A stretch of 64,000 nt of DNA, from assembly GCA_951230915.1 (NCBI GenBank), contig OX579638.1, positions 31,100,322-31,164,321 on the forward strand, written 5' to 3'. The notes below the pieces were generated by a model. That model was not told the origin of the DNA and made no database searches. It saw only the letters and a program-made list of their open reading frames with translations. How positions within the stretch are numbered: position 1 is the first letter of the stretch; every line of letters begins with the position of its first letter. A program made the position numbers and the translations under genes. This stretch comes from Antitrichia curtipendula (Eukaryota > Streptophyta > Bryopsida > Hypnales > Leucodontaceae). Positions 8,489-32,200 of this stretch are shown piece by piece.

Positions 8489-8698
8489 CTATTAATAGAC
8501 ATCATATCCAAACCCCTTAAATTCACAGTTATGGGTGCTGCTATTAATAGACATCATATCCAAACCCCTTAAATTCACAGTTATGGGTGCTGCTATTAAT
8601 AGACATCATATCCAAACCCCTTAAATTCACAGTTATGGGTGCTGCTATTAATAGACATCATATCCAAACCCCTTAAATTCACAGTTATGGGTGCTGCT
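8489..8698 (+). repeat. Four-copy 52-bp tandem repeat
   Basis: Units containing ATTAATAGACATCATATCC and CCCCTTAAATTCACAG start at 8489, 8541, 8593 and 8645. The copies are essentially identical, so the expansion is recent. The array ends in GTGCTGCT before unique sequence. Confidence 0.95.
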
Positions 8699-9508
8699 AC
8701 CTTATGGCTACAAGATGAAAATCAAATTTCTCAATCTATTCCTGTTGATCTAACGCAAGTGTCAATGGCTAACATTCTGTTGTTATTGTTGAACAAATCA
8801 AGGAACTTCTTTGGAGGGAGTAGCTCCGCACGACCTACACTGGTGACCTGTGACTGCCTTTGAATTCTGACCTCTGACAAAGTTCATGGCGCAACATTCA
8901 CAGATTCTATGAAGCTTTATTGAACATAGCTTTTTTAACTTTCGTCATGTTCGATTCCCTACTGATTCTCTTTCACTTCGATCTAGAGGTTTCGGGGTTT
9001 TGGCGTCATCCCTCTCAAAAAAAAATCACCACATATATGAAAGCTGTTAATGTATATGGAACCAAAATCGGATTGAGCGAAACCTAATGGTCTCACCACG
9101 ATAGCAGTCAGGCATATTGATGGCGGATATATGCCTCGATCACCAAATATCACCAGCAGCAATAACTTCAAAAATACGTTTTACTGTCACAAGCAAAAAA
9201 CAATTTGTTGTCATTGTAGGTGAAGACTATTTTTAAGGTTTGGTTGCACTTAAGTGTAGTGTTAGGAATGGTGCTAGCAAAAGGTAATCCAGTTTATGGG
9301 TGTACTCAAATTAAATTCTAAGACCCTGGCTAAGACACCTCTCAACTCCAAGTGAGAACATGTCTTAACTCGATGAACGAAGAACAGACGATAGGCTTAT
9401 GTGCGTCAGAAATACAGAAAAGGTTGAACCTCAAGCACTGTACAAATGATTCAAATGATTCTGTTTGATTCATCACTGTGCTGAATGTAAGAGAGCATAT
9501 ACTGTAGT
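8699..9508. other. Downstream flank of the AIRIM-like gene
   Basis: No convincing gene. It may include the 3' UTR of the minus-strand gene and possibly a further terminal exon near 9476-9420, which I could not settle. Confidence 0.5.
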
Positions 9509-17509: not shown

Positions 17510-18330
17510 GTTAATGGTTGTGTATTAGAAAGGCCTAAAAATTTCAGAATTTGACTGAATTCTTGCATATGTTGTAAGCAAATTTGAATTCCAAAAACCA
17601 TGGCCGTTAATGGCTATGCACTTGGAAGGCAAATTTTTTCCAGCATTTGACCAAATTCTAGCATATATTGCAAGCAAATTTCAATCTCCAAAAGCATGGC
17701 CATTAATGGCTAGGGGTCTAGGAAGGCCCAAAAAATTCCAGCATTTGACCAAAATTCTTGCATATGCTGAAATAAATTTGAGTCCCTAAAATTGTAGCCT
17801 CTAACGGCTGGGGGTCTAGGAAGGTCGAAAAAATTTCAACATTTAACCAAAATTCTTGCATATGTTGCAAGCAAATTTCAATCTCCAAGAGCATGGCCAT
17901 TAACGGCTAGGGGTCTAAGAAGGTTCAAAAAAATTCAGCATTTGACCAAATTCTTGCATATGCTACAGTAAATTTGAGTCCCTAAAACCATAGCTGTTAA
18001 CGGCTGGGGGTCTAGGAAGACCCAAAAAATTACAGCATTTGACCAAAATTCTTGCATATATTGCAAGCAAATTTGAATCTCCAAAAGCGTGGCCGTTAAC
18101 GGCTAGGGGGTCTAGGAAGGCCCTCCAAAAGTCCCTATTTGACCAAATTCTAGCATACGCTACAATAAATTTAAGCCCCTAAAATCGTAGCCGTTAACGG
18201 CTGGGGGTCTAGAAAGGCCCAAAATTTTTTAGCATTTGACCAAATTCTTGCATATATTGCAAGCAAATTTGAATCTCCAAAAGCGTGGCCGTTAACGGCT
18301 ATGCATTAGGTTGTCCCAAAAAAATTCAAG
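17510..18330 (+). repeat. Dimeric ~98-bp tandem satellite, about eight units
   Basis: Each unit contains GCATTTGACCAAATTCTTGC and a GTTAACGGCT-like block followed by GGGGTCTAGGAAGGC. The block recurs near 17607, 17703, 17797, 17899, 17999, 18094, 18192 and 18292. Two unit types alternate: type A has TTGCAAGCAAATTTGAATCTCC, shown in part as GCAAGCAAATTT, and type B has AAATTTGAGTCCCTAAAA. The order is A A B A B A B A, a higher-order dimer of about 195 bp. Confidence 0.85.
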
Positions 18331-18420
18331 ATTTGCACACCTAGATTAGGAAGCCACTAATTTTGAATACATGTTGGAGAGAAGACAAACTCTTTATACA
18401 ATTGGGGTGATACAAGGTAA

Positions 18421-23649: not shown

Positions 23650-25347
23650 ATGTGTTTGGTGTTTTAGATGAAATTTTTTCACTACCAATAATTGTTCCAA
23701 AATTCACAATAATTTAAAAACTCACAAAAATATTGAAACTTTTATGACTCATAGAAGACATATGGTTACATCTCTGACAAAAAAAATTATAAAAATTTAA
23801 TTCATGTGTAGTTGCAAAACGGGAGCACATACAGAGAGCACTTCAAAGTTTGCAAAAGTGGTCGTAGGCCTGTCCATCGTGGGTTCCGGTGCCACAACCT
23901 TAGGGTTAAGTGTACACTACAATCAAGGATATGCAACTTATCCAATACCTGGAACAATACACAAACCTCTACAATACTAACTCCACTCACAGTCTTCAAG
24001 TCAGTAACCAGTAATCTCGGCCAACAGTCCACTGAAACTCATCGCATCCAATCTCTTCGAAAAATCTGGATATCAGGAAAACACTTAAACTTAGTTGCAG
24101 CTGAAATCTCCCCATCCTTCACGCCTCGCACAAGAGTACTTGAACACTGCATTGAGGAACCCCGTCCCAGACGAACATCACAGCTCTCGTAACGTAGACT
24201 CATACGATTCAATCTCGACTTGTCCCACGTCTATCTTTAATTCTGGGGACTGGCACAGATGAGCATTAATCACTTCTCATGACACCCCCAGTTGCTGCTA
24301 CATTATTAACTGTACCGAGGGCTCCTGTCATTATGAATTTCACCGAGGCTTAATTGTGGTCTGCAACAGACCCTCACTAACGCCTGAACATACAGGTCTA
24401 CTCATAGGCACAACATTGTAATAACAAGTCCACCGTTTCAGAGCGTTCAAACACAAATGTGAACGCAGACAACAAGAAATCAAAACACTCCTACAGCTAA
24501 CACAATCCTGAAAGCAAGGAAGACCTAACTTACACACCCCATAGAAGAACCCATGACAGATAATACAAGTCTCAAATGCACGGCTGAGCGAATTCAAAAG
24601 GAGTACGTAGGAGAGGAGAGAGAGACACGCCAAGAAATAAGCATTGTCACTGAGATCTTATTCAAGTGGTATATCCAGGGGTGACAAAACATGAATAGAA
24701 ACGAATGAGATAAGAATTAAAAATAAGATATAACAGTACACTTAGTTTACCGGGGGGGGAAAAAAGACGACTCTAAAAAAATAATAAACTGTTCACAATC
24801 AAAGAATCGGCAGTTGACAAGTTCAGAAGGTCCAAGAAACCTTAGCACAGCGTTGACGTGCACACGGAGCCTCTCGCTCACCCTCTGAACTTGACCACCA
24901 GAAGATAAAAATATAGCATAGCAGTTGAATGGATAGAAAAATCAATAAATGCCAATCGGTACCCAAAGTCACCTCACCACAGGAGCTCGCTGTGTCACAG
25001 CCAATGCAAGGGTCAGTGAGGCAGCCTGATACATCCAAGGGGCGCAGTAGTCTGCCATAAAAGGGCAATCTTTGATTGCCTGGTGTCTCGGTGCCCATTG
25101 GGAAGAGAGAGATAGGGCAAGGTTTACCCAAATCTTACCACATCAGAACCACCCCCCTTTTTTTTATCTCACTAGAAATAAACCTTCCGATATCTGTCTA
25201 CTCCCTAAGCAGTCCTTCACCACCACATGCACCACCTGCTCCTATTTTCCAACTCCGCCTACTGCAGATCGAACCACGAAGCCTGGACTTGTCGAATCTT
25301 TCGGGTCCCTGGCACATCTCAAAGAAAGCTTATGACTCGAGTTCAAT
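23650..25347. other. Downstream flank of the LRX-lectin gene, GC-richer than surroundings
   Basis: From about 23800 base composition rises and stays higher to about 28950. No gene with a believable start was found. The minus-strand frame at 24633-24340 starts with TTG only, and the plus frame at 23812-24192 has no recognisable domain. It could contain the 3' UTR or an unrelated non-coding transcript. Near 25040-24970 (-) a short Cys-rich stretch, VSGCLTDPCIGCDTASSCGE, lies between an AG and a GT. Confidence 0.5.
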
Positions 25348-28195
25348 TTATTCCCACTTGGGGATGCAAGTTCCAGAGCCGTCTGCCGTGAAGCCTTCGC
25401 TACAGCCGCAGTTGTACCCTACCGGAGAGTGCGGATCGGAGTAGCACTTCGCCTCGGAATCGCCCTGCGTTTTGCACGTATCGTCCAAATCACATCCAGC
25501 ATCTTCGCATTCGGTCAATGCACAGATGAAGGGCAACGCCACATCGCAGCTCAAGTCGTTGAGCATGAAGGGAAGCTTCTCCGGGTTACGAGCCTGCTCC
25601 CAAGACTCGTACTTAATAGTCAGACAGCCTTCATACCCTCCCAAGTTGTTAGGCTCCCCGTCGTTCCAGAAAGTCTGGTTGAACTCAATGCAAGGAGCGA
25701 GAGGGTAGTTCCAACCCTTGGTGGGGGGAGTGATCGTGTAGGGTCTCCGGCCTCCCAAGTAGCAGCCCAGACCCAGAGGGTTAACATGGTCACTGAAAAT
25801 AGTCTCATTCGACTTGTAACACATACGCCCAAGGTCCTTGAGCTCGGCCCAATTGGCAACGGCGGCCAAGTGTCCATCTGATTGTCCACGGCAGTAAAAC
25901 TCAGCATCCACCCACTTCTTTGGCTCCTTGACCAACATGAAGCATGTTCCTGATTTGTGCCCAGGCTTGTATCCAGGAGGGCAAGCAGCAGGAGGAGGAG
26001 GTGGAGACACGACTGGAGGAGGGGGTGAGAGGACGGGAGGAGGCGGTGACAGGACTGGTGGAGGAGGTGACAGTACGGGAGGAGGAGGAGACAATACTGG
26101 AGGAGGAGGAGAGGGTGTAGGAGTAGGAGGAGAGGGTGTAGGAGTAGGAGGAGAGGGTGTAGGAGTAGGAGGAGAGGGTGTAGGAGTAGGAGGAGTAGGA
26201 GTAGGATTGCCAGGAGGTGAGTAGAATGCAGCGCATGTCGCGGAGTCCTTCTGGCCAGAAGAGCCAGGCACACAGTTACCTCTGAGTGAGAGGATATCCC
26301 CAAGTGCAGAGCATGAAGAGTCGACTCCAGTGAAGTAATTGTCGTCCAGTACAACAGAGCTCAAATTACTGAGTCCACAAAGCTCAGCTGTCACTTTTCC
26401 ACTGAGCTTGTTCTTTGCCATAGCGAAAACTTCCAAGTCCCTCATGTTCTTGATGTTGTCCGGGATCCCTCCAGTGATGCGGTTGTCACTGTAGTCGAAG
26501 AGATTGACCAACTTCAAGCTGCCTATTTCCTCTGGAAGTCCTCCATGGAATTTGTTGTTCGAGGCCACGATCTCCTGCAACGTTCCACCCAATCGGCCGA
26601 TGGACTTGGGGATGTCGCCATCGAAGTTATTGTTGGCGAGCACCATCGCTGAAGTTTTAGCATCTCCAAAAGTATCCGGAAGCTCACCCTCGAAGTTGCA
26701 GTTGTTCACGAAGATCGCATCCAGAGGCTTTAAGAAAAGCTCCCTCGGCAACTTGCCGTAAAACTTGTTGAAGCGAATGTCGAGGTAAACCAGGTTGGGA
26801 ATCGCCAGAACTGCTGATGGGAAAGTACCCCCGAACCAGTTGTTGCTGAGATCCAGCTCGAAGAGTGTCTTCAGGTACTTGAAAGACTCCGGAACTGTTC
26901 CACTGAATCGGTTACTGTTCAAATGGAACAAGCCAATCTCCCGAAGCAAACCGAGCTCGGGCACCAGAGTTCCCTTCAAATAAGCATCGTTCAAGTCGAT
27001 GCCAGACACGACCTCAAGGTAGGAGAGATTCGGATCTTCTGGAGGAGAGCAGAACACTCCTTCGTACGCACAGACATCGGTCCCCACCCAGGTCTTGGTG
27101 ACACCTTGAGGGTCATCAGTGATGGCCTTTTTCCATGCCTGCAGAGCTATCCATGCTCTCCATTTGCTCCACGCGGGCGCATGTCGACCCACACCAGGGG
27201 GATGGTGGCCAACACCCGGAGGATGCGGCCCACCAGGAGAGAATCCAGGGCCACCCTCTGTCAACAACACATACGAGAATAATCAATACCGCAAGTTCAC
27301 GCAGCAGATCGATCAGGAAACCTCCAAATCACACATAGCGAAAACCTACTACACAAAACCATCAATTAAAACAAAACAAGAACAAGAACAAGAACAAGGC
27401 ATTGGAAAGAGAGTGTATCTCCACGCTCAGATCTACTACAATAGACGCAGAACAGGGCGTGATTGATGCCCCCTGCGTGCCTATTTAATAAAGGAGCATG
27501 AGGAATATTCCTCTAGATTTTTTAAACTCGATATTCAAAACCCTTGCACAGATATCGAGAATAGCCAATTCATATGCCAATTTCTAATCACATCGCGACG
27601 ATATGCACAGTAACGGATCTCGGAATGCATAATTCAAAGCACATCTGGCTCACATCCATTCCAAAAACTCCGAAGGAGTCTTGAATCTGATCCCAAGAAC
27701 AGTACCAAGAACTCTTCACACACTATCCACAACTTACCAAGCCGACTCTACAACCAAGGTCGTCAGTCCTACATTACTTCCCTCTCTACGTCAACGGGCA
27801 CGTCACGTTATGGTATGGCATCACACACTCTCGACAGCGCATCGACACACAACCGCCCTAATCTTTCCAAAACAACGTTGAAGCTTAACTTCTCATCACG
27901 AATCAGTACACCCAACTATTATCATTCAAATAGCTACAAACGCATAGCGCAGTGAGTCTCCAGAGCACCCGCATTGAGTCCTCTCTATCCACCGCAACAA
28001 ACCTCACCATGCCCACTTCCCAAACACAAAGCGCCAACCTTCACACTCAAAACTTGAAAACCGAACACCAAAGAACGAAAGTCCACACTCTACTTCCAAA
28101 CCCAGTTCGAGATGCAACCACTAAGAGCACTTACCAGTAGCTACAACCACGGACACCAACGCCACCAACACGGTCACCACCAGCAGTGCCTTCAT
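25348..28195 (-). CDS. Leucine-rich-repeat extensin with C-type lectin and EGF-like domains
   Basis: A secreted wall glycoprotein that probably senses or cross-links wall polymers. Exon 1 (28195-28135) encodes MKALLVVTVLVALVSVVVAT, a clear signal peptide; an 877-base GT-AG intron follows, then exon 2 (27257-25348). Phase 1 joins cleanly, giving 656 residues. Order: LRR N-cap with C83/C90, about ten LRRs at roughly 104-345, a Cys cluster (C314, C336, C349, C362), an extensin region at 367-445 with TPTPSPP and SPPPPVL repeats, a C-type lectin fold at 446-599, and a Cys-rich EGF-like module at 604-651. The lectin keeps EPN (555-557, the mannose-type calcium motif), an ND-xx-C motif near 587, and the terminal FIC. 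LRR plus extensin is the known LRX plan; the lectin-EGF tail is not. The frame starting MLLTEGG lacks the signal peptide and begins in the intron. Overlapping Gly-rich and Leu-rich frames are shadows of the proline repeats. Confidence 0.93.
25986..26213 (-). repeat. Extensin-coding tandem repeats
   Basis: Codon-level repeats encode TPTPSPP units followed by SPPPPVL units inside the LRX-lectin gene. The C-rich strand is the coding one. The number of units is likely to vary between alleles. Confidence 0.9.
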
Positions 28196-29034
28196 CGTCG
28201 ACCCCCTCCGAAAGCCGCTGCTCCCTGCGCATGCTTTCGACGGCGCCATGCACCGCACCATCACACCGGGAGAACCCCCTCCACGGCCACTTTCGCAACC
28301 GGGGTTGCTGCACTTTCCTTAAGTCTTCTAAACTACCACCCGGTACAGCAGCGATCTCACGCACCCCACCAATGCAGCTCTCCACTCTGCATCCACCACA
28401 AGCACATCAACATTAACAACACCAATGCAAGCTCCACTCGGGAGCCCCAACAGCTTGATCCCTACCAATGCAAGCTCGACTCTGGATCCCTACTACCCTG
28501 GAAACGGACACCGCGAGAGGGGTGAGCAGGCGTGTGTGAGTGTGTGTACCTGAAGGGAGGCAGTACTAGCGGTCGCGTCTCAGATGCTGTCAGAGAGGAG
28601 AGCTCAGGTGAGAAGGACTGGAGCTTGCCCTTGGCGATGGGAAAAGGAGGAGAAGAGGGCAAGGGCAATGGGAAGGGCAGGAAGGGCGAGCTGCGAGAGG
28701 AGCAGCCAGCAGCGAGCAGCAGCAGCGCGCATGTGGGGCATGCCGGCGCAAGGCGAGGGGGGGAAGACGAGGCGAGACGAGACGAGTAGGGCCAGCCGCG
28801 ACTTGCTGCGAGGCCGCCGAGCGGCCATTACGTGCGGGACGCGCGGCGGGCTTGGAGGACGCGACGGGACCCCTGCGCCCGTCGTCGTCGGCTGAGAAGT
28901 TACTTACCGTAAGAAGTTACCGTCCCACACACCTATTCCGCTTCCGGGCTTCATTACCGCATTTAATAACTAGGCTGACCTTTCTCCGGGCACCCCGCGT
29001 GCCCTATGGCCGTTTCTAACACCAAAAATGGGCC
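28196..29034. promoter_or_regulatory. GC- and CpG-rich 5' flank of the LRX-lectin gene
   Basis: The stretch upstream of the start codon, especially 28480-28900, is markedly GC-rich with many CG dinucleotides. It probably holds the 5' UTR and promoter. A strong donor-like site in the minus direction (ACG-GTAAGT, near 28907) might belong to a 5' UTR intron. I saw no clear TATA box. Open frames here on either strand are by-products of the base composition. Confidence 0.4.
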
Positions 29035-29256
29035 GGGGTGAACTGACCCCTCGCTCGTCCCTGAGGAAAAACCCTGAAATTTTTTATTTGCCACACATTA
29101 TAAAATTTATAAAATTTGAATTCATATTTGCAATCAGGGGCCCCGAATTAGCCCAAGGGCATGATAATTAAAACAAGCACAAAATAGGGGGTCTTTTTTT
29201 TTACATGCATACATGGAGTGACTTAGGCGGGACGAGCGAGGGGGTCAGTTCACCCC
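29035..29256. mobile_element. MITE with GGGGTGAACTGACCCC ends
   Basis: The left end GGGGTGAACTGACCCC-TCGCTCGTCCC is repeated inverted at the right end with one extra C. The arms are about 27 bases and the element about 222 bases, with an AT-rich non-coding interior. No convincing target duplication was seen. Confidence 0.8.
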
Positions 29257-32200
29257 AACCCCAAAATGGTACCAAAATGTGGGTCATTTTATATTGTCCA
29301 TTTTCATTTCTCATGAGCACATGCTACTAAACATCATAGTAAAAAAATTGGAAAGTCTAACACTTCATCAATTTTATTTTGCATTAATGGTAATAATTAT
29401 CGTGGAAGATATTATTTAATATTTTAATATATACAATGGACAATAGCATATTTGAATTAGATAATGTAGTGTTTTTATGTGTTGTGCCTGTTTAAGATGT
29501 GCTACCCCTTGCCAAGTTCTAAGTTTTATTGTAGATTTTTCAATTGTCAAGTTTTTTTTTTCATCTTTGTGGTCATTACTATTGTTTTTATTTTTCACCC
29601 TTAAATTTTCTAATGTTGTTTTCACTTTCCACTCATCCTTTTCTTAATACAAAGATTGTCATTTCTACTTTTCATTCTTGGATTCCTTGTTATTGTTATT
29701 TTTGCCCTTGAGTTCTCCTATTGTCATTTGAAACTTTCATCCTTGTGTTTCTTAATGTCATTTCTACCTTCACTCTTAGAGATCCTATTGTTGTTTCCCT
29801 TTTCATCCTTAGAGGCACTTTTGTTGGTTTCCCTTTTTTTCATGGATGGCATGTGATGGTCATGCATTCATGAAATCAACATAATTCCATGATAAAAATG
29901 TAGGAGAAATCTTGATATTCTATATTTAGACTATATTAATCTAAATTTGATTTCATTGAGATAAATTCACTCTAAAATCGTTAGGGCAACTTTTGGGCAA
30001 AAACTATCCAAAAGATGTCACATTATAGTGCATTGATAGGGGAAAAACAAGGGATTAAACTTAAATTTGGCACGCTAGTAAAATTAATTGTAAATTTATC
30101 TCTGATTGTACATGGGTTGTTAGAGAAAGATTTAACTCAAAATAATACAAAAAGATTACAACACCAAACTCAAGACCAAACTTTATAAGATCCTAATTTT
30201 GGTGCTTTAAGGAGTTTTGTCATGGGTTTTTTTCTAACATCAAATTGTAGCTCTTTGGTCCCTCTTCAAAATTTATGATCAACTCTAATGTAAATTAGAT
30301 CCCATTTTTGCATGGGTGGAACCTAAAATTCCATTTAGGAAGAATGCAATCAACATTGAATAGTGATTTTAAAGGGAAATTATACTAATTAATCGACACT
30401 AAACACTATATAAATATCTGCCTTTGTTGTACATCATGTTTCAAATATTTGCAATTTTCCACATTAAATTCCTTTAATTTTTTGGTCCCCTTAATATCCC
30501 TACTTAGTGTAATTTGATTAGATTACATGCAACAATTGCTCTTTGTACTTTGACTCTTGGAATGAGATCTATTTTTCTTACATTTATATTTTTTATTGTG
30601 TTGGTGATAGCCTAAAATTTAGAAGAAACAGATAAATTTTGTAAAGTTTCACAAAGTGTCACTGCCTATGTTCCTTGACTCTGAAAAAACATAACATTTG
30701 ATTTAGGTAGTTGTTGAGGAAAAAATGGTATCCTTACAAAAGTTTCTTTAGTCTTTTTCAATAACAATTGTCTTTTAGGGGTTAAAAGCCAAAATTACAA
30801 CTCAATTTGTTGTAAACTAAAAACAATAAAAACCTAGTGATTTTTGAAACAATAAAGTAAAAAATGTTTAGAATTTCAAAAGTTGTAATCATAATAAAAA
30901 TGGAGGCAATAATTGAAGTGTGAGTTTATGGTTGATTAAAATTGGATTAAAGTTAATCAAGAAAGGAACTCAAGGACTAAAAATGTTTGATGAATGACTT
31001 TCAAGAAACTGTAAGACTAAATAATGTATGTATTCATCCAAGAGTCTAATTATGATTACATCATTGAGTTATGATTGGATTATGTGTTTTCAGATTTAGA
31101 TTTGTAAGGTTGTCAATAATAACAATTGTCCATTGGATTGTCAAACAATATTTTTCCATATTGTAGAACATATGATTTTTATCAAATTTATTTTGTGCAA
31201 CTTCACCAATGCTATTTCTAAATCATTGCATCATTGAGTTAATTCAAATCATATATTAAGTTATTTTCAATTTATGAAGATAGTTCATCAAAAAAATAAT
31301 ACACTTATACAATGTACTTGACTACATAGATCAAGATTTTGGAAATAGAGTGAAACAAAAAATTTATATTATTATCATTTGTACTAGAGGAAATTTATAA
31401 TCAATTTTTTTGAATATTTTATTTTAAATATTTTAAATATTTTAAAAACATTTTTTTCAAAATACTTTTTTATATGAATTTTCTCCACTTATTTTATAAA
31501 AATTCATAACAAAATCTGAAATTTTTATGATGTAGAACGTACTTGGATTTGAAGGTTGGCATATTTAATTAAAGTTGGGAAAACAAGTTCAACGTATGCT
31601 TTATATGAAATATTATTTCAAGATCCTTTATCTCTATACAAATTTACTTTTTTCCATAGAAACAATTTCCTCAAAATTCCAACATTCATTTTTAGAATTA
31701 TTTTTTGCCTATTATGATCACCATGAATAATAACAAACATGAGCTTTCATCTCTAAAATAAACCTATAAAATTTCACCCATAAATAACGACAAATTGAAG
31801 GATGCAAATAGGATTTTTTTTGAGGTCAACTAAGCTTTCACGGTCATGGGCTCCACCTTTCTAGGAGTAGTCTTGAAAGGACACCAAGGACATTTTGTGC
31901 CCTTTAGATGGTAAACTAGTCTTTGTACATATTGAACAATTCATGATTTTCATATCATTTTTTAAGTGCAACTTTATTGATGCTTCATCCACATCATTGA
32001 ATTGATTTAAAGACATTTTAGTTATTTTTTATTTTTGTATAGGATAGTTAATAAAAAATGATACACTAATAAATTTATTTCAATACTTTGAGCTTTTTTC
32101 CCTTAAAACTTGATTTTGACATTCAATACAATTTTTTTTAAGGGCCCCTTTTAAAAATGTGACGCTCCCAATGTTGGGAATGTTGTAGGGAACATTGTGA

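Follow-up and report, generated by a model that had tools for sequence, protein, structure and literature searches.

A minus-strand gene at 25348-28195 of the 64-kb window (the whole stretch of Antitrichia curtipendula DNA analysed here) encodes an LRX-type protein in which the extensin stretch is followed by a C-type lectin domain and a Cys-rich tail; it lies at C6:31.1 Mb of the 400-Mb, 303-contig assembly. Exon 1 (28195-28135, 61 bases) extends from the ATG to a GTAAGT donor and covers residues 1-20 together with the first base of codon 21. Residues 1-20 form a putative signal peptide, judged from the hydrophobic start. An 877-base GT-AG intron (28134-27258, GTAAGT...TTGACAG) separates exon 1 from exon 2 (27257-25348, 1910 bases), which codes from codon 21 to the stop at 25350-25348 and is contained in a single open frame of 644 codons. 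Joining the exons keeps the frame and gives a product of exactly 656 residues. The coordinates of a preliminary description proved correct and its spliced product was reproduced in frame; its statement that one exon carries everything from the LRR domain through the lectin to the tail, with the signal peptide on a separate exon, also holds.

The order that this description had put forward, namely LRRs, a Pro-rich stretch, a lectin domain with EPN and ND motifs and a Cys-rich tail, is present in the product (domain boundaries drawn by us) and recurs in 11 relatives, and because these carry the same order it cannot be attributed to chance. The architecture running from signal peptide through LRR domain, extensin stretch and lectin domain to the tail is thus almost certainly real. 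A hydrophobic start joined at approximately the same point is found in 6 of the 11 relatives (P0003, P0004, P0005, P0009, P0010 and P0012), which supports the exon 1-2 junction at the sequence level and argues for one product, as originally claimed, rather than two transcripts. The N-termini of the remaining relatives are either cut short (P0002 and P0011) or begin with unlike sequence (P0006, P0007 and P0008). Exon 1 is short, and this is what could be said for a gene-model artefact, be it a chance joining of two genes or an unspliced reading. Such an artefact is nevertheless extremely improbable: LRR through tail is one open exon, the join is common to the 11 relatives, two of which are annotated in Ceratodon under locus names that place them on different chromosomes, and the lectin-bearing rows make up one clade in the tree described below.

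G+C content is 46-50% at 24001-30000, around the gene, and 27-44% elsewhere in the window. Tandem repeats occur at 8489-8699 (a 52-base unit, 4.1 copies, 100% matches) and 17526-18335 (a 98/196-base unit). The search for neighbouring genes in the 64-kb window covered eight chosen long ORFs, none with a Pfam match; no tRNA and no Rfam family was detected in the window, which is gene-poor by these searches.

The LRR domain and the extensin stretch

The LRR domain with its N-terminal cap (residues 50-367; 26218-27171, minus strand) was delimited by Pfam LRRNT_2 and LRR matches, by the PDB match to LRX2 and by Foldseek, and on these sequence and model comparisons it is an LRX domain. Its best PDB match is LRX2 (6qxp, E 3.2e-91), out of 155 distinct matches at E<=0.01. 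Ranks 2 and 3 are held by the LRR kinases GSO1 and FLS2, by sums over five stretches each, and ranks 4 and 5 by the LRX8-type chains 6qwn (E 1.1e-81) and 6tme, each in one stretch. All six Cys residues framing the LRX2 LRR domain are kept in the alignment with the moss protein. AlphaFold was run on exon 2 and on the lectin segment, with 12-row alignments. In the exon 2 model, ten-residue blocks across positions 121-340 have mean pLDDT values of 68-95, the N-terminal cap and first repeats falling below 65, and LRX chains fill the first 15 of the best 50 Foldseek rows for this model.

According to its title, 6tme is LRX8 in complex with RALF4; the titles of 6qxp and 6qwn say only 'protein peptide complex'. 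As a proxy for RALF binding, we compared identity at the concave LRR face with that over the rest of the LRRs. The face is hardly more conserved with LRX2 (20/35 against 132/274) or LRX8 (16/35 against 127/272), which makes this proxy uninformative. Upstream of the domain, the translated sequence contains an HPPGVGH-type repeat at residues 32-46 (27181-27225, minus strand). Eleven of the 121 compared proteins carry this type of motif, comprising nine of the 11 relatives, one Ceratodon row dropped from the alignments (P0013) and the Marchantia LRX P0015; it is possibly an ancestral feature of bryophyte LRX proteins.

The Pro-rich extensin stretch (residues 368-445; 25984-26217, minus strand) has six SP(4-5) motifs, all at residues 403-443, and hence the Ser-Pro extensin feature of LRX proteins. 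It contains no Tyr and no YXY. The YXY motif is likewise absent from the Pro-rich stretch of all 11 relatives, among which P0006 and P0008 have a single Tyr inside the stretch; the other Tyr in the counts belongs to the border with the LRRs. An extensin domain with Tyr is not a strict defining feature of the family; the title of a 2010 study by Ringli reportedly states that the LRX1 extensin domain requires Tyr for function. Passages of two papers describe the extensin domain as anchoring LRX proteins, and LRX1 without it as acting dominant-negatively (PMC12034098, PMC11850971). With no Tyr in the moss Pro-rich stretch, coupling to the wall could fall to the lectin.

The moss protein thus shares with the vascular-plant LRX1-11 and PEX proteins the signal peptide, the LRRNT and LRRs, the six Cys of the LRX2 alignment and a Ser-Pro(3-5) extensin stretch, and differs from them in the missing Tyr and in the lectin domain and Cys-rich tail added after the extensin part. 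These 211 additional residues mean that the extensin stretch is not C-terminal. By its LRR and extensin parts, the protein is a member of the LRX family that departs from the family definition at its C-terminus. LRX proteins, five of which are reported in P. patens, have been described as ending in the extensin domain, and the word 'lectin' is absent from the main text of that P. patens LRX study (Liu et al., PMC4769139). Among the matches listed in a search of the main texts of open-licence papers, none described an LRX with a lectin.

The lectin domain and the Cys-rich tail

The C-type lectin domain (residues 446-602; 25513-25983, minus strand) was identified by Pfam Lectin_C, PDB profile matches and hhalign. 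The segment alone scored 25.8 bits against Lectin_C (E 1.9e-5), and 21.9 bits within exon 2 (cut-off 22.6); seven of the eight members tested matched at E<=0.1. Searching the PDB with a profile of eight lectin segments gave 78 distinct matches at E<=0.01, the best of them at E 1e-6. The best 60 of these comprise venom snaclecs, Reg proteins, langerin, mincle, mannose receptor, E-selectin and similar chains, all of which we take to be C-type lectins or lectin-like. Many of the profile matches are partial, and Reg3-alpha chains match the whole lectin domain. When a single sequence served as the query, the best 60 PDB rows included langerin (CLEC4K), mannose-binding protein C and CD209-like chains. 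A comparison by hhalign with three animal-type lectins reached a probability of 99 over 128 columns and is non-independent, since the same profile had found those three.

The structure prediction that the preliminary description had named as a check returned low confidence for this region: mean pLDDT was 44.7 for the lectin segment alone, and nearly all of residues 446-599 fell below 50 in both models. Foldseek rows for the low-confidence lectin model (the best 50 being lectin-type chains with E 0.039 or worse and TM-scores of 0.11-0.20) were not counted as structural support for the fold, given the insignificant E values and the poor input model.

Sequence alignment places the predicted calcium and sugar ligands at E555 P556 N557 (the EPN motif, 25648-25656), E563, and N587 D588 (the ND motif, 25555-25560, predicted to bind calcium), all on the minus strand; the ligand positions (EPN or QPD, E, ND) are presumably those that bind calcium and sugar in mannose-type lectins. 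All five predicted ligand residues are intact in 18 of 20 sequences, a set consisting of the window protein, P0002-P0012 and P0122-P0129. One of the other two, P0012, has QPD for EPN and SD for ND and is a candidate for a natural switch or loss of sugar specificity. The other, P0128, has EPD in a loop expanded by repeated WDDGE/NKT-like units, and SD for ND. The mannose-type site is therefore, as read from these two sequences, not kept in every copy.

With EPN-type lectins (langerin/CD207, mannose-binding protein, CD209-like), the moss domain shares the core GEPNN..GG.E.C...ND..C....PFIC and the five predicted ligands. It differs from animal-type lectins (24-30% identity to three of them) in extra Cys residues, a longer stretch before ND and the fusion to a plant wall protein.

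The Cys-rich tail (residues 603-656; 25351-25512, minus strand) contains seven Cys, invariant in all 12 aligned sequences. Its earlier designation as an EGF-like module is a weak one: the Cys pattern is conserved, but the match to Pfam cEGF reaches 15.4 bits, below the 26.6 cut-off, and three of eight members match at E<=0.1. A CTLD followed by an EGF-like module is also the order in selectins, and E-selectin 1g1t was matched weakly (profile positions 18-181, E 0.0011, no single stretch passing). In contrast to selectins, the moss protein shows no membrane span or further repeats, and its EGF match is weak; we infer that the shared order probably arose independently. The plant C-type lectin receptor kinase of the At1g52310 type carries a CTLD too. 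The moss protein ends after the Cys-rich tail, with no kinase Pfam match and no membrane span seen by eye, and so lacks what would make it a lectin receptor kinase.

Relatives, copy number and origin

A homologue search returned 249 proteins, and among the best 120 the lectin was in frame in 11 (P0002-P0012). Identity to the window protein across these 11 relatives is 61-95% for the lectin domain and 67-95% for the LRR domain; the best local alignments of P0014-P0121 have 36-52% identity and cover 41-60% of exon 2. The lectin-bearing relatives with a named organism, P0005 and P0009, are both from Ceratodon purpureus, and the Ceratodon records are annotated as hypothetical protein or cell wall hydroxyproline-rich glycoprotein. 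The lectin-LRX is thus, judged by sequence, a conserved moss-type family already in the databases without a functional name. P0013, also from Ceratodon, was dropped from alignments, counts and tree on account of a frame lost inside the Pro-rich part; P0009 and P0013 have the same LRR part, and the frame loss in P0013 is either an assembly error or real variation.

A motif scan of 121 proteins found the lectin motif exclusively in the 11 relatives and in the window's own segment. A search with lectin-and-tail words retrieved 10 proteins, all of the lectin-LRX group, its limited reach being apparent from the missed P0012. A profile search for shorter proteins added 11, namely eight C-terminal pieces (P0122-P0129), which start after the Pro-rich stretch so that the LRR side falls outside these records, and three distant lectins, one from sturgeon.

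A single branch (support 100/99) sets the 12 lectin-bearing rows apart from all others in the tree built on 120 LRR regions. The lectin label requires one change on this tree, a value as low as which was obtained in 0 of 500 shuffles. Adjoining the lectin clade (100/99) on a long branch is the Marchantia LRX P0015, which likely has no lectin; its record is marked partial. The simplest reading of these sequences is a single fusion in a moss ancestor.

Two further leads on the lectin were considered and set aside. For a bacterial origin, a scan of bacterial and archaeal contigs gave 46 pattern matches, with zero relatives among them. In Physcomitrellopsis africana, a lectin gene is reported to have been acquired by transfer; a passage of the paper states that no Ceratodon or P. 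patens protein aligned near it, and we accordingly treat it as a different gene (PMC11228847).

The gene seems to be the only LRX in the A. curtipendula genome, as found by two queries. The LRR part recovered itself at 843 bits, with the next best hit at 101.5 bits and 36% identity (113 of 586 candidates scored). With the clubmoss LRX P0032 as a control query, the gene scored 323.9 bits (51% identity) and the next best hit 100.8 bits (101 of 557 scored). These queries should therefore have picked up any ordinary LRX that the assembly contained. No SP motif was found in the LRR frames of L002-L020, a weak negative, since the LRR filter was strict enough to lose the known gene (L001, L021) as well. 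A lectin-and-tail query of the genome returned only this gene (two candidates). The PF00059 family search gave no match in this genome and none in 14 control genomes, and is uninformative on other lectin genes. Four RALF-family matches exceeded the cut-off in the A. curtipendula genome (L022-L025), one of which, L024, has a YISYGAL motif and four Cys; the same search found none in the 14 control genomes.

A proposed calcium-dependent hold on the wall

We propose that the ancestor of the moss clade acquired, in a single event, the lectin domain and the small Cys-rich EGF-like tail behind the extensin stretch. By its LRR domain the secreted LRX would hold a RALF peptide, which would in turn link it to pectin and to a FERONIA-type receptor, with the Ser-Hyp stretch acting as a glycosylated, rod-like spacer. 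The calcium-bound lectin would grip the ends of mannose-, glucose- or fucose-type sugars, whether of the wall itself or of its glycoproteins. The protein would in this way have two wall attachment points, one of them reversible and calcium-dependent, and the lectin grip could replace the Tyr-dependent role of the angiosperm LRX extensin domain. The observed architecture, its conservation in a single clade, the one LRX found, the intact ligand set and the RALF-family matches are the starting points from which we infer RALF binding, wall attachment, sugar binding with its specificity, and calcium control. A moss LRX whose lectin adds calcium-dependent coupling to mannose-type sugars by this mechanism is a proposal for which we see roughly even chances.

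An EPN site requires free 3- and 4-hydroxyls and would be expected to take sugar ends; internal parts of a beta-1,4-mannan chain would be unfit as ligands, and chain ends or the glycans of glycoproteins are as likely. Passages of the cited studies put mannan linkages at ~7% in protonemal walls of P. patens (PMC6482432) and describe LRX proteins as binding RALF peptides and interacting with FERONIA-type receptors (PMC12034098, PMC11850971).

The same domains could instead serve as an immune trap: the lectin would bind mannose-type glycans of fungal or bacterial origin, not those of the plant's own wall, and the LRR part would signal their presence by letting go of RALF or keeping it bound. The EPN-type site would suit such a role, as would the presence of langerin (CLEC4K), mannose-binding protein C and CD209-like chains among the best 60 PDB rows, and a passage on P. 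patens describes RALF2 and RALF3 as negative regulators of immunity (PMC9933782). We nevertheless consider an immune trap unlikely: the lectin is about as conserved as the LRR domain and no second copy was found, a pattern that would fit a structural ligand better than a microbial one that changes fast, and there is no kinase match and no visible membrane span. Nor is it probable that the lectin domain has lost sugar binding and works as a module for protein-protein contacts or packing, like many animal C-type-lectin-like domains. The low Pfam score, the long insertion before ND and the altered ligand residues of two relatives are what such a module might display, but CTLDs that do not bind sugar usually lose the ligand residues, and here all five are kept in 18 of the 20 sequences.

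Taken to its full extent, the calcium-dependent coupling proposed above would have the sole LRX of a moss fastened, in place of Tyr cross-links, by a lectin whose grip on mannose-type sugars is reversible and gated by calcium, with calcium directly setting how firmly LRX and RALF are coupled to the wall, and with duplicated copies having shifted their specificity from EPN to QPD. We offer this combined reading tentatively, as more doubtful than probable.

To our knowledge, plant C-type lectins outside receptor kinases are rare, and the lectin-LRX would be one. Angiosperm LRX proteins form redundant families whose grip on the wall is unsettled, and gene targeting is routine in moss; with one LRX found, and that one equipped with its own candidate sugar-binding domain, the question of how LRX proteins hold the wall becomes close to a one-gene experiment in moss. 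LRX proteins link the wall to growth and immunity via RALF, and how they grip the wall is presented as unsettled in passages of two papers (PMC11850971, PMC12034098). In A. curtipendula, wall sensing may depend on calcium-controlled sugar binding.
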